This document shows, piece after piece, positions 1,120 through 5,727 of a stretch of DNA of 11,185 bases. Position 1 is the first letter of the stretch. The number at the start of each line of letters is the position of its first letter. The notes under the pieces were generated by a model. That model did not search any database. It had not been told where the DNA came from and saw only the letters and a list, made by a program, of their open reading frames with translations. The DNA comes from an uncultured bacterium (GTDB lineage: Bacteria; CALINM01): contig CALINM010000118.1 in the NCBI GenBank assembly GCA_938045315.1, positions 1 through 11,185 of the forward strand. The letters are read 5' to 3'. Made by a program: the position numbers and the translations under genes.

Positions 1120-1150
1120 AATAAGGGGCTTTTTTAGCCCCCTATTTTTT
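1120..1150. terminator. Bidirectional intrinsic terminator between convergent genes
   Basis: GGGGCT at 1125-1130 pairs with AGCCCC at 1136-1141 across a five-T loop. An A-rich stretch precedes the stem and a run of six T follows it (1145-1150). It works as a rho-independent terminator for the plus-strand formate dehydrogenase gene and, read in reverse, for the minus-strand redox operon, whose last stop codon lies at 1149-1151. It sits two bases after the second stop of the formate dehydrogenase frame (1118), so the original gene end was 1118, not 977. Confidence 0.85.
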
Positions 1151-1625
1151 ATAAAAGCTTATCAATCATAGCTTTCAGTTCTTTTGATTCCACATATCCT
1201 TTTAGATTTATGATTAACTTACCATTTTTATCATATAAAAAGAGCTGTGGCACCGCATCAATATTAAATGTTGTGTTAAGCTCTGAGGTTGTAAGAAACA
1301 CAGGATAATTAAAACCCATTTGTTTTGAGAAAGGTGCCACAGCTTCTTCTCCATTTTCATCTACGCTTATGCCTATAATTATAAAATTTTTGTCTTTATA
1401 TTCCTTTGAAATGGTTATTAGCTCAGGTATTTCTATTCTACATGGTGGACACCAAGTGGCAAAAAAGTTTACCAAAACAACTTTGCCAGAGTGGGACTTT
1501 AGAATATTGTTAAACTCTGCGAGTGTAAGTTGCTTGAATTGACCAGATGATTTAACTATTTCTTCTTTCTTCTCGCATCCTGAGAAAATTAAGATTAATA
1601 ATAGGATATAAATAGCTCTTTTCAT
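1149..1625 (-). CDS. TlpA/ResA-like thiol-disulfide oxidoreductase lipoprotein
   Basis: This 158-residue protein is a thioredoxin-fold redoxin predicted to act in the periplasm, anchored by lipid. A short basic start and hydrophobic stretch (residues 2-15) end in a lipobox-like IFSGC, with Cys17 as the likely lipidated residue. The active site is WCPPC at residues 58-62, within VNFFATWCPPCRIEIPEL, a classic TlpA/ResA signature. The cis-proline loop is VPQ (Pro126), and the IIGISVDE strand is also typical. Such proteins reduce disulfides, for example in cytochrome c maturation; the partner here is unknown. Its ATG overlaps the stop of the upstream Fe-S gene as ATGA (1622-1625), indicating translational coupling. 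This suggests that electrons for the WCPPC pair could come from the Fe-S protein, which is inference. The family assignment is secure. Confidence 0.92.
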   Translation of the reverse strand: MKRAIYILLLILIFSGCEKKEEIVKSSGQFKQLTLAEFNNILKSHSGKVVLVNFFATWCPPCRIEIPELITISKEYKDKNFIIIGISVDENGEEAVAPFSKQMGFNYPVFLTTSELNTTFNIDAVPQLFLYDKNGKLIINLKGYVESKELKAMIDKLL

Positions 1626-2506
1626 ACTAAATTCTCCTTTATGACTTTTTGTTGTTCTTTACCCACAAATTCTACGGATATAGCTCCATATTTACATGAT
1701 GTAGCATAGCATTTAAAGCACCTTATACAATTTAGTTGATTTGCCCCCTCGTAAAATTTGAGATGCATAGGACAATCTCTAAAGCATTGGTTGCATCTCA
1801 CACACTTTTTATCATCGTGCCTCATTCTTACTATGCTGATTTTATTAAAAAAGGAATAAAAACCGCCAAGGGGGCATATTGTTCTGCAAAAGGGTCTTCT
1901 GATAAATACCATTGCTATAAGAATAATAATAAGTACTATTAATTTATTGTAAAAAAGAACACCTATTAACCTTCTCAAAGAAGGGTCTAATAAAGTCATT
2001 GGTATTCCTGCTTCTAATGTGCCAGCAGGGCAAACAAATTTACAAAACCAGGTCATTCCATATCCAAATTGATCAATAACAACAAGGGGTAATAAAATTA
2101 CAAAGAAAAAGAGAAAAAAGTATTTACCATATTGGGTCCAGGATGGGATATTTATTTTTTTTGATGGAATTTTATGAATTAATTCTTGTAAAAAGCCGAA
2201 AGGACATAACCATCCGCAGGGAAATCTTCCAACAAGCATCCCAATTGTTCCTAAGAAGCCAAAAATGTAAAGCCCTATATGAAATTTAAAGTTTTGTAGA
2301 GAAATTCTTATGGAAGCAAAAATTGTTTGTAAAGAACCAATGGGGCATGCCCATATTGCAGCAGGGCAAGAATAACAATTAAGGCCTGGAGCACAGAAAG
2401 ATTTAAGTTGACCTTGATAAATTTTACCGCTAAAGATAAAACCAAAGTAGGAATTGTTGATAAATGTAATCGCTGTTTGTATATATCTTCTTAAGATATT
2501 TATCAT
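1622..2506 (-). CDS. NapH/YccM-like 4Fe-4S membrane polyferredoxin
   Basis: This 294-residue integral membrane protein (from ATG 2506) is predicted to carry electrons across or along the inner membrane. It has hydrophobic segments near residues 11-27, 78-95, 127-147 and 186-203. Pairs of CxxxCP motifs sit near the membrane: C97/C101 (FPCGWLCPFG), C155/C159 (FCKFVCPAG) and C207/C211 (FCRTICPLGG). The N-terminal Cys group is C38, C44, C47 and C54. Two C-terminal ferredoxin-type clusters are C235/C238/C241/C245 and C260/C263/C266/C271; the second has four rather than three residues before the last Cys. This layout is that of NapH, YccM and related quinol- or ferredoxin-linked proteins. A TTG at 2530 would add eight residues, but ATG 2506 overlaps the upstream small gene's stop as ATGA and is preferred. 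The gene is coupled by ATGA overlaps on both sides. The exact electron donor and acceptor are not evident. Confidence 0.88.
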   Translation of the reverse strand: MINILRRYIQTAITFINNSYFGFIFSGKIYQGQLKSFCAPGLNCYSCPAAIWACPIGSLQTIFASIRISLQNFKFHIGLYIFGFLGTIGMLVGRFPCGWLCPFGFLQELIHKIPSKKINIPSWTQYGKYFFLFFFVILLPLVVIDQFGYGMTWFCKFVCPAGTLEAGIPMTLLDPSLRRLIGVLFYNKLIVLIIILIAMVFIRRPFCRTICPLGGFYSFFNKISIVRMRHDDKKCVRCNQCFRDCPMHLKFYEGANQLNCIRCFKCYATSCKYGAISVEFVGKEQQKVIKENLV

Positions 2507-2643
2507 CCTATACCTATACAACTTAGACAAATTTTGATGGCTTTTTCTAAAACAGGGATGTACTCTTTACAGTTTATCCCAATTATAAAAAGAGCTAAAA
2601 AGAATAAAAACAAAAAATAGGGGAAAAAAAATCTAAATTTCAT
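2503..2643 (-). CDS. 46-aa membrane peptide with CLSCIGIG terminus (CD1871A-type CXXC protein)
   Basis: This small gene runs from ATG 2641-2643 to TGA 2503-2505 on the minus strand. It encodes one very hydrophobic segment (about residues 4-23, rich in Phe and Leu), a short polar linker (NCKEYIPVLEKA) and a C-terminal KICLSCIGIG ending exactly at the stop. The ending ICLxCIGIG is the hallmark I recall of the CD1871A family of CXXC-containing small proteins, known from clostridia and others and of unknown function. Its stop overlaps the start of the NapH-like gene as ATGA, so the reading frame, start and coupling support each other. The CXXC (Cys39, Cys42) would sit just after the membrane helix and could exchange thiols with the TlpA-like protein or receive electrons from the Fe-S protein; this role is inferred. 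There is an extra Cys at position 25. No Shine-Dalgarno sequence precedes the ATG. Confidence 0.8.
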   Translation of the reverse strand: MKFRFFFPYFLFLFFLALFIIGINCKEYIPVLEKAIKICLSCIGIG

Positions 2644-3647: not shown

Positions 3648-4592
3648 ATGAAAGAACGTAAATTGCCATTTGTTACAATTGTTATTCCTGTAAAGCCTGG
3701 TTTAACCCCCGATGCAATTAAAGCTATAAAAAAAATAAATTATCCTAAGGATAAAATAGAGGTTATAACTGTATACGGAAGAAATCCTTCTAAACAAAGA
3801 AATGAGGCAGTGAAGCTTGCAAGAGGAGATATAATATATTTTCTTGATAATGATTCTATGCCCGAAAAAGATACTCTAATGAAGCTTATAGTGCACATAA
3901 AAGATGATGTTGTTTTAGCAGGTGGACCAAGCATCATGCCAGAGAAACTACCTGTTAAAGCCTTTGTATTTGGGAAAACACTAGAATCTTTTTTTTCTAC
4001 TGGGCACTCAAGAGCAAGGTATAGAAAGATTGGAGATGTAAGATTTACAGATGAAAAAGAAATTATATTATGTAATATGGTGATGAAGAAGGATATTTTC
4101 TTAGAATTTGGTGGTTTTAACGAAAGATTATATCCCAACGAAGAAAATGAATTGATGGATAAACTTAAACATTCTGGTTTTAAGATGATTTATGATCCCC
4201 ATGCTACAGTGATAAGAATGCCAAGAAAAACACTGATTTCCTTCATAAAACAAATTTTTAATTACGGAAGAGGTAGGGGAGAACAGACAGTATTTTATCC
4301 TAAGAGTTTTAATTTATTTAATTTTGCACCACTAATTTTTTTGTTGTATTTATTGTTTTCTCTATTTTATGGAGGATATTTTTTTATTCCCTTGATTTTT
4401 TACTTTGTTATATTAATTCTTGATTGCCTGATAAAAATAATCAAAAGTAAGGACATAAGGTATATATTTTTGCCTATCACCACTTTTATACTACATATAA
4501 CCTATGGGGTAGGCCTTGTTTATGGTCTTCTGAAAGCACCATTTAAAAAAGTAAAAAATGGTGGGTTAAATATTGAGTATGTCAAAGTTTAA
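3648..4592 (+). CDS. Membrane-anchored family 2 glycosyltransferase
   Basis: This 314-residue GT-A fold enzyme transfers a sugar from a nucleotide- or lipid-activated donor in surface-glycan synthesis. The N-terminal strand VTIVIPVKPG (9-18) opens the nucleotide-binding domain. IIYFLDNDSMP carries the DxD-like metal site DND (67-69), NMVMKKDIFLEFGGFNE (143-159) is the usual GT2 acceptor-side block, and NEENELMDKL (164-173) holds the acidic catalytic-base region. A QxxRW-like position is taken by YGRGRGEQ (206-213). The C-terminus has hydrophobic segments at about 226-262 and 272-296, so the enzyme is held at the cytoplasmic membrane. It begins the cluster, 57 bp from the divergent gene. Its 3' end overlaps the STT3-like gene by 14 bases, which suggests coupling. 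No strong ribosome site is visible before ATG 3648. The sugar specificity cannot be told. Confidence 0.88.
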   Translation: MKERKLPFVTIVIPVKPGLTPDAIKAIKKINYPKDKIEVITVYGRNPSKQRNEAVKLARGDIIYFLDNDSMPEKDTLMKLIVHIKDDVVLAGGPSIMPEKLPVKAFVFGKTLESFFSTGHSRARYRKIGDVRFTDEKEIILCNMVMKKDIFLEFGGFNERLYPNEENELMDKLKHSGFKMIYDPHATVIRMPRKTLISFIKQIFNYGRGRGEQTVFYPKSFNLFNFAPLIFLLYLLFSLFYGGYFFIPLIFYFVILILDCLIKIIKSKDIRYIFLPITTFILHITYGVGLVYGLLKAPFKKVKNGGLNIEYVKV

Positions 4593-5346
4593 TGAAAAAG
4601 CGTTTTTGATTCTTTTTGTTCTTATTGGCTTAATTATAAGATATTTGCCGTTTTTTAATGAGTTAAAAGAAAGCCCTATCTTATTTTATCAGCCCGATAA
4701 TCTATACTATGTAAGGCGTGTAATGACTATTTTGAATGATTTCCCTAAAGTCCCAAGATTTGACTATTATTTGAACTTTGCTGAAGCAGTTGATTTTCCA
4801 AGCCCGCCATTTTATCCATTTTTTTTAGCATTTGTATCATGGATAATTTCACTGGGTAAGGCAAACTTACATATTGTTGAGCTTGTAACATCGGGTGTTA
4901 CTGCTATTTCTGGTTCTTTAATATGCATACCAGTCTATCTAATATCTAAAAAAATTATGAGTAATAAATATGCTTTGATGGTATCTTTTATATCTGTTTT
5001 TATGCCCCTTCATTATTGGTATACAAATGCGATAGACGGTGATCATCATGCATTAGAAAGTCTTATGGCTTTATTTTTGTTTAATTCTTTTATGGATGTA
5101 TATAAAGAAAATAACTTTAAAGATATTACAAAGTTTGTCTTATGCTTATTGATAATTTTTTTATTATGGCAGGGAGCTATTCTATACGCGGGAATAATTG
5201 TTTTATACGTCTTTGGATACACTTTGTTGTATTCAAGAGACTATAAAACTAGTAGGTATTTGGGGTTTTCAATAGTTTTTTTAAGGAAGTACCTGTTAAA
5301 ATTTTGTATACCCCCTATTCAATTAGTAAAGGACAGAAAAACTTAA
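4579..5346 (+). CDS. Truncated STT3/PglB/AglB-type oligosaccharyltransferase (probable broken gene)
   Basis: The 255 residues match only the N-terminal third of an STT3-type GT-C enzyme, which moves a lipid-linked glycan to Asn. Visible features are a first membrane helix (8-24), the first external loop with an acidic site near QPDNLYYVRR (D40), a FPSPPFYPF block, and the second acidic motif IDGDHHALE (152-160), which corresponds to the family's DxD/DHHxxE site. Hydrophobic helices run from there to about residue 234. Family members usually have over 600 residues with a WWDYG catalytic-pocket motif after the last helix; none is present. From about residue 232 the frame reads LRKYLLKFCIPPIQ, which is an out-of-frame reading of a different gene's tail (see 5283-5396). 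ATG 4579 is chosen; TTG 4573 is an in-frame alternative. It overlaps the preceding GT2. It is very likely inactive. Confidence 0.75.
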   Translation: MSKFNEKAFLILFVLIGLIIRYLPFFNELKESPILFYQPDNLYYVRRVMTILNDFPKVPRFDYYLNFAEAVDFPSPPFYPFFLAFVSWIISLGKANLHIVELVTSGVTAISGSLICIPVYLISKKIMSNKYALMVSFISVFMPLHYWYTNAIDGDHHALESLMALFLFNSFMDVYKENNFKDITKFVLCLLIIFLLWQGAILYAGIIVLYVFGYTLLYSRDYKTSRYLGFSIVFLRKYLLKFCIPPIQLVKDRKT

Positions 5347-5396
5347 AGGCCATAAATATATTGATTCATATGTTAAAGAGGAGGTTTTTTGCTTAA
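5283..5396 (+). pseudogene. Remnant C-terminus of a deleted family 2 glycosyltransferase
   Basis: In a frame different from the truncated STT3 gene, 37 codons read KEVPVKILYTPYSISKGQ, then KNLKAINILIHMLKRRFFA and a stop at 5394-5396. This resembles the last segment of GT2 enzymes that sit directly before DUF2304 genes, whose ends typically read (W)KEVPVTIRYTxYSxxKGQ followed by an amphipathic helix. The frame is closed upstream by TAG 5253-5255, so there is no start. Its stop overlaps the DUF2304 start at 5389, as expected for an original GT2-DUF2304 pair. It is best explained as what remained after a deletion joined it to the STT3 gene near the T7 run at 5276-5282. Confidence 0.65.
5375..5384 (+). 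promoter_or_regulatory. Strong ribosome binding site for the DUF2304 gene
   Basis: AAAGAGGAGG lies four bases before the TTG at 5389. It fixes the start at this TTG, since there is no ATG near it in the frame. The site lies inside the GT2 remnant's coding frame, a sign of former translational coupling. Confidence 0.7.
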
Positions 5397-5727
5397 ATAT
5401 CAGATTTTTTTTGGAATCATAGTATTTCTTATAATTTTGAAAAATATCTTTGCGTATAGGAAAAGAGAACTAAAAGCTAACAAATTTATCATTTCCTTTC
5501 TTTTCTGGTTATCGGTGCTTTTGGCGATAATTTTTCCTGAATCAACAAACAAGATGGCCCATTTTTTTAATGTTACCAGGGGGGCAGATTTTTTTATTTA
5601 CATCTCCATCATAGTAATTTTTTATTTGTTATTTAGGATAAACCAAAGGCCAGAAAGTATGGAAGCGAATATTACCAAAATAATAAGAGAGATAGCTCTT
5701 CATAAGGGTAATGAAAAAAATAAATAA
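5389..5727 (+). CDS. DUF2304 family small membrane protein
   Basis: This 112-residue protein has three hydrophobic helices (about residues 3-20, 34-51 and 67-84), then a charged C-terminal tail that looks helical (ITKIIREIALHKGNEK). The layout, with FPESTNKMAHFFNVTRGADFFIYISI in the middle (roughly 49-74) and LLFRINQRPESMEANITKIIREIAL after it, matches DUF2304, whose members sit next to GT2 glycosyltransferases in polysaccharide and glycolipid clusters. Function is unknown; a role as a membrane partner of a polyprenyl-phosphate glycosyltransferase is inferred from context. It uses TTG with a strong ribosome site. Its natural partner GT2 appears to be deleted upstream, but another GT2 with membrane helices follows at 5766. 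Confidence 0.8.
   Translation: MLKYQIFFGIIVFLIILKNIFAYRKRELKANKFIISFLFWLSVLLAIIFPESTNKMAHFFNVTRGADFFIYISIIVIFYLLFRINQRPESMEANITKIIREIALHKGNEKNK

Follow-up and report, generated by a model that had tools for sequence, protein, structure and literature searches.

TlpA/ResA proteins are reductants, and many anaerobes have extracytoplasmic TlpA-type reductants without having DsbD/CcdA. What, then, reduces them? The question is raised by an 11,185-nucleotide stretch of DNA from an uncultured bacterium (contig CALINM010000118.1; the whole stretch is called the window below), in which three genes lie on the minus strand in the order membrane peptide, NapH-like polyferredoxin and TlpA-like lipoprotein (Table 1). 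Based on sequence comparison we propose, with a probability of about 0.65, that these genes specify one transmembrane reducing system in which Fe-S clusters and a thiol/selenol adaptor would do the job of CcdA/DsbD. The coupling through two ATGA overlaps, as described in the original prediction, is indeed present, and relatives from the same genus and family (L003, L005) keep the three-gene order.

Table 1. Features of the three-gene locus, with positions counted from the first nucleotide of the window.
Feature	Position	Strand	Basis or remark
46-aa CD1871A-family membrane peptide	2643..2503	-	46-codon ORF MKFRFFFPYFLFLFFLALFIIGINCKEYIPVLEKAIKICLSCIGIG; predicted N-in, single TM; C-terminal CXXC-GIG
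CXXC codons C39-L-S-C42 of the peptide	2518..2529	-	C39-equivalent is UGA (candidate Sec) in 9 homologues
ATGA overlap peptide/NapH-like	2506-2503	-	sequence
NapH-like polyferredoxin	2506..1622	-	294 aa, 18 Cys; PF12801 match, Cys conservation
Extra four-Cys motif C38-x5-C44-x2-C47-x6-C54	2345..2395	-	predicted outer face (charge distribution)
Inner CX3CP pair C97/C101	2204..2218	-	invariant in 84 homologues
Outer CX3CP pair C155/C159	2030..2044	-	C159 invariant; C155 is Ser in 11/122
Inner CX3CP pair C207/C211	1874..1888	-	invariant in 84 homologues
Cytoplasmic 2[4Fe-4S] ferredoxin domain, eight Cys	1694..1804	-	Fer4 matches; all eight Cys invariant
ATGA overlap NapH-like/TlpA-like	1625-1622	-	sequence
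TlpA/ResA-like lipoprotein	1625..1149	-	158 aa; PF00578, PF08534; ResA-like solved relatives
WCPPC active-site Cys C59/C62	1440..1451	-	sequence

A TATAAT at 2651-2656 lies some 8-13 nt 5' of the peptide ATG. The two nearest relatives have it at a comparable distance, and a Shine-Dalgarno sequence is not evident; together this suggests a leaderless transcript. Elsewhere in the window, the C-terminus of a formate dehydrogenase-N alpha subunit (3-1118) is broken by a TAA at 975-977, past which the frame runs on with 46 codons of the expected C-terminus (VGLPFFFGW...NIEKI); this may reflect an assembly error, a pseudogene or a real truncation. At 4573-5727 a 257-aa membrane ORF ends in an early stop, and a second, separate membrane ORF of 112 aa comes after it; by eye the first resembles the N-terminus of an STT3/PglB oligosaccharyltransferase (no Pfam match).

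With 37.5 bits the peptide lies above the curated cutoff of 32 for NF040920, the NCBIfam model for the CD1871A family, and it is a short membrane protein with one TM segment and a C-terminal CXXC, so that the match suggested earlier from its terminal ICLxCIGIG signature holds. The family was also said to be without a described function: the literature searched contained no mention of CD1871A or NF040920, searches for TlpA together with a polyferredoxin, NapH or a selenoprotein brought up nothing on the three-gene module, and no Pfam model covers the peptide. Between the window and the homologue from the same genus dN is 0.16 and dS 1.49 (dN/dS about 0.11), which speaks indirectly against an untranslated frame; since the gene order is also kept in genus and family, the sequences indicate a real gene under purifying selection. 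No loss of the CXXC or the C-terminal GIG was found: G22, C39, C42 and G44 are invariant across 90 aligned members, with the proviso that in the named loci (see below) the pattern used for the search already demanded part of this conservation, a restriction that does not apply to our HMM searches for CD1871A. The positive-inside charge pattern places the CXXC outside. Weak CD1871A matches at L009, L010 and L105 have no NapH gene beside them and were set aside.

The second protein matches the Fer4_5 model PF12801 with 71.5 bits (cutoff 22) and combines CX3CP motifs, TM helices (three clear ones and a weak N-terminal one) and a cytoplasmic 2[4Fe-4S] domain. It reaches only 50 bits against TIGR02163, the model for NapH proper (cutoff 213), and is therefore named NapH-like only. 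Sixteen of its eighteen cysteines are kept throughout the homologues examined in full, C38 and C155 each being dispensable. In the extra motif C44, C47 and C54 are invariant in 122 homologues, while C38 is absent in three of these and also in the phylum of G080. Judged from this conservation and the charge distribution, we infer that the sixteen cysteines fit four [4Fe-4S] clusters, namely two in the ferredoxin domain, one on the inner side (C97/C101/C207/C211) and one on the outer side (C44/C47/C54/C159). An AlphaFold model of a chain read through in frame from the peptide into NapH (L074, a modelling device only) reached a pLDDT of 80 and a pTM of 0.76 with a confident NapH part, which supports a stable NapH-like fold; confidence is about 53 at the CXXC end and the model shows no clear docking of the CXXC, so that direct contact between peptide and NapH-like protein is only presumed. 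A structure search found no solved relative of the membrane part. The window's genome and that of a relative in the genus also hold a second NapH-like paralogue (L163, L164), in which Ser replaces C155 and an NCWSCP motif is present; the copy in the relative carries an in-frame TAA.

The third protein has a lipobox (FSGC) and a WCPPC motif, and scores above the cutoffs of PF00578 (61 bits) and PF08534 (57 bits). By its AhpC-TSA/Redoxin domain, CXXC and predicted lipidation signal it belongs to the TlpA type; since it scores 79.7 bits against the ResA model NF002854 (cutoff 170) we name it TlpA/ResA-like only.

To what extent do the three genes belong together? The original prediction expected NapH-like and TlpA genes to recur beside the peptide, and they do. 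A scan of named genomes gave 80 loci from Clostridia, Treponema and other Spirochaetes, Coriobacteria, Poribacteria, Acidobacteriota, Deltaproteobacteria and others. A NapH-like gene adjoins the peptide gene in 79 of these independent loci, which argues against chance (in the remaining one, L063, a single opposite-strand gene separates the two). In 61 loci a same-strand TlpA gene is found no more than 2.5 kb away (35 upstream, 26 downstream; active site CxxC in 54 and UxxC in 7), and 19 loci have none in that range; given one or a few TlpA-type matches per roughly 3-Mb genome, a nearby TlpA would be expected by chance in about 1% of loci or less. In the phylum of G080 the peptide gene overlaps TlpA and NapH is not adjacent; all seven genomes have a gene of the same NapH subfamily at another location. 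Two Clostridia carry NapH and TlpA fused in one ORF (581 aa in L103, 730 aa in L104), in both cases adjoining a larger membrane protein that ends in ICTECIGLG. In these larger proteins (L103:3001-3882 and L104:3001-3819) the CD1871A sequence forms the C-terminus, and no Pfam model matches them.

The TlpA link weakens in Desulfobacterota: NapH adjoins the peptide in 34 of 35 loci, whereas a TlpA is near in only five (four of them without CXXC), although many of these loci have flanks of only 1.5 kb. NapH is thus linked more tightly to the peptide (79/80 and 34/35) than TlpA is (61/80 and 5/35). Together with the existence of NapH-TlpA fusions, this might suggest that the peptide belongs to NapH as a subunit with a structural or cluster-ligating role, its CXXC being no thiol carrier, and that NapH reduces TlpA directly. 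We regard this as unlikely in view of the selenocysteine variants of the peptide.

In nine homologues from three groups the codon for the first CXXC cysteine is TGA: L102 in Clostridia, L138-L144 in Desulfobacterota, and L018 in G104, a genome from the phylum of G026 (the other copy in G104 has the same peptide as L019, a Poribacteria locus). Past the UGA the frame runs through the conserved tail (SCIGIG, ECIGIG or SCIGVG; CIG[IV]G) to a stop. SECIS-like hairpins with a GGG/GGGU apical loop lie 23 and 18 nt past the UGA in the two cases that were scored, and the other seven show a matching stem and loop. SelB was found in eight of the nine genomes (G104, G230 and six of the seven Desulfobacterota) and was not found in G704. 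All nine peptides are therefore candidate selenoproteins by UGA, tail and hairpin, with SelB except in G704. The seven UxxC partners among the TlpA proteins also come with hairpins; UxxC thioredoxin-fold proteins are already known. Selenocysteine normally marks a catalytic redox residue, and its presence at the first cysteine in three groups argues against a purely structural peptide, even though Sec also occurs near metal sites, as in hydrogenases and HdrA (PMC9312934). Both scored hairpins fall inside the bacterial SECIS spacing of 16-37 nt (PMC13188914).

Near four of the Sec peptides (L138, L140, L141 and L143) the TlpA-like proteins lack a CXXC, and at two of these loci (L138, L140) the gene after NapH is multihaem-cytochrome-like. 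A pairing of Sec in the peptide with loss of C155 in NapH was considered and rejected: NapH proteins with C155S accompany Cys peptides as well (L137, L145, L149), and L102 combines a Sec peptide with a retained C155.

The original prediction further stated that DsbD/CcdA is lacking. This is true for the window, where no locus protein matches PF02683, but the genome encodes a CcdA elsewhere (G000:C53:5077-5697, PF02683, E 2e-26). A route through peptide, NapH and TlpA would therefore be additional to CcdA in this organism, and not exclusive. As a DsbD/CcdA-independent route the proposal finds its support in the distribution over other genomes: 38 of 54 CD1871A genomes from many groups have no PF02683 match. 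Among 216 Clostridia, CD1871A scores above the cutoff in 35, all with a TlpA-type match, and CcdA/DsbD occurs in 9 of these 35 against 101 of the 181 CD1871A-negative genomes (p 0.0015; counts ignore phylogeny). The 137 Clostridia with a TlpA-type match divide into 87 with CcdA only, 26 with CD1871A only, 9 with both and 15 with neither, showing that the two systems tend toward mutual exclusion in TlpA-positive genomes (p 2e-10, phylogeny again being ignored). The TlpA model also catches peroxiredoxins, and six of seven inspected matches in the genomes with neither system proved to be peroxiredoxins, not TlpA. Among the matches listed, 76 of 82 CD1871A-negative genomes have a TlpA no more than 3 kb from CcdA, and in 20 of 28 genomes TlpA is equally close to CD1871A (3 kb at most).

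The presence of CcdA in the window's genome, together with the Desulfobacterota loci that often have no TlpA (two inspected ones having the cytochrome-like gene beside NapH), might indicate that CcdA serves TlpA here while peptide and NapH feed another envelope acceptor, for example cytochromes. This seems quite improbable, since the CcdA is flanked by its own two thioredoxin-like genes, the TlpA gene shares an ATGA with NapH in the window and sits next to NapH in relatives, and several genomes hold separate TlpAs, one beside each system.

Summarizing these lines, the recurring neighbourhood, the fusions, the replacement of Cys by Sec and the complementary distribution make a conserved three-part module with a redox CXXC, and its role as an alternative to CcdA/DsbD, well supported at the level of sequence. 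For the relay that was predicted from Fe-S protein to CXXC peptide to WCPPC lipoprotein, the module and the redox CXXC thus stand, whereas the order of steps, like the electron direction, the cluster assignment, the donor and the client, is what we infer. The NapH-like protein would take up electrons at its 2[4Fe-4S] domain from a low-potential donor in the cytoplasm, either ferredoxin or, where present, quinol. The electrons would then cross the membrane via the cluster on the inner CX3CP pairs to the outer-face cluster, which would reduce the CXXC disulfide of the N-in peptide. The first cysteine of the peptide (or Sec in some species) would attack the CXXC disulfide of the TlpA lipoprotein, and this in turn would reduce envelope clients; no recurring client was seen among the flanking genes of homologous loci (65 proteins).

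Electrons could also flow the other way, from envelope thiols via TlpA and peptide to NapH and on to quinone or ferredoxin, giving disulfide formation as in DsbA/DsbB. Sequence cannot tell the direction, yet TlpA/ResA proteins act as reductants, and both in its distribution and in its position beside TlpA the module stands in for CcdA, a source of reductant, which makes the reverse flow very doubtful. NapH-like proteins as such have been proposed to partner either reductases or oxidases (PMC8238504).

The proposed outward route resembles CcdA/DsbD (PF02683) with TlpA/ResA in that reducing power crosses the membrane to an extracytoplasmic TlpA-type thioredoxin, the TlpA gene is adjacent, and both matches can share one open frame. 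The difference is that CcdA/DsbD forms an all-thiol relay from cytoplasmic thioredoxin, whereas the module consists of an unrelated Fe-S polyferredoxin and a CXXC peptide. With the membrane ferredoxins of NapH, NosR, PceC and flavinylated systems (PMC8238504) the NapH-like protein shares Fer4_5, CX3CP and the cytoplasmic ferredoxin domain and, by analogy, probably the movement of electrons across the membrane; unlike these it has no FMN domain, carries extra conserved outer cysteines, and has a CXXC peptide and TlpA as partners. If the proposal holds, a [4Fe-4S] cluster would be coupled to disulfide reduction of a thioredoxin-fold protein as in ferredoxin:thioredoxin reductase, though that enzyme is soluble and its catalytic domain is not among the Pfam matches of the NapH-like protein. 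By score and motif the peptide is a member of NF040920, a family that is here tied to the module and extended with Sec variants.

Overall, the module probably carries electrons outward in many anaerobes and reduces disulfides in species without DsbD/CcdA. We consider it reasonably likely that it represents an undescribed class of transmembrane thiol-reducing system, in which a polyferredoxin drives a thiol/selenol micro-protein that passes electrons to TlpA, replacing CcdA/DsbD; the micro-protein family was not found in the selenoproteome reviews PMC13188914 (by family name) and PMC9312934 (by motif). If true, such a ferredoxin-driven route would answer what reduces TlpA in anaerobes without CcdA (26 of the 216 sampled Clostridia have the CD1871A module and a TlpA-type match with CcdA absent), would give the uncharacterised CD1871A family a role, and would explain why the micro-protein and its polyferredoxin are hardly ever found apart. 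Thanks to the Sec variants, the reactive residue can be tested directly.
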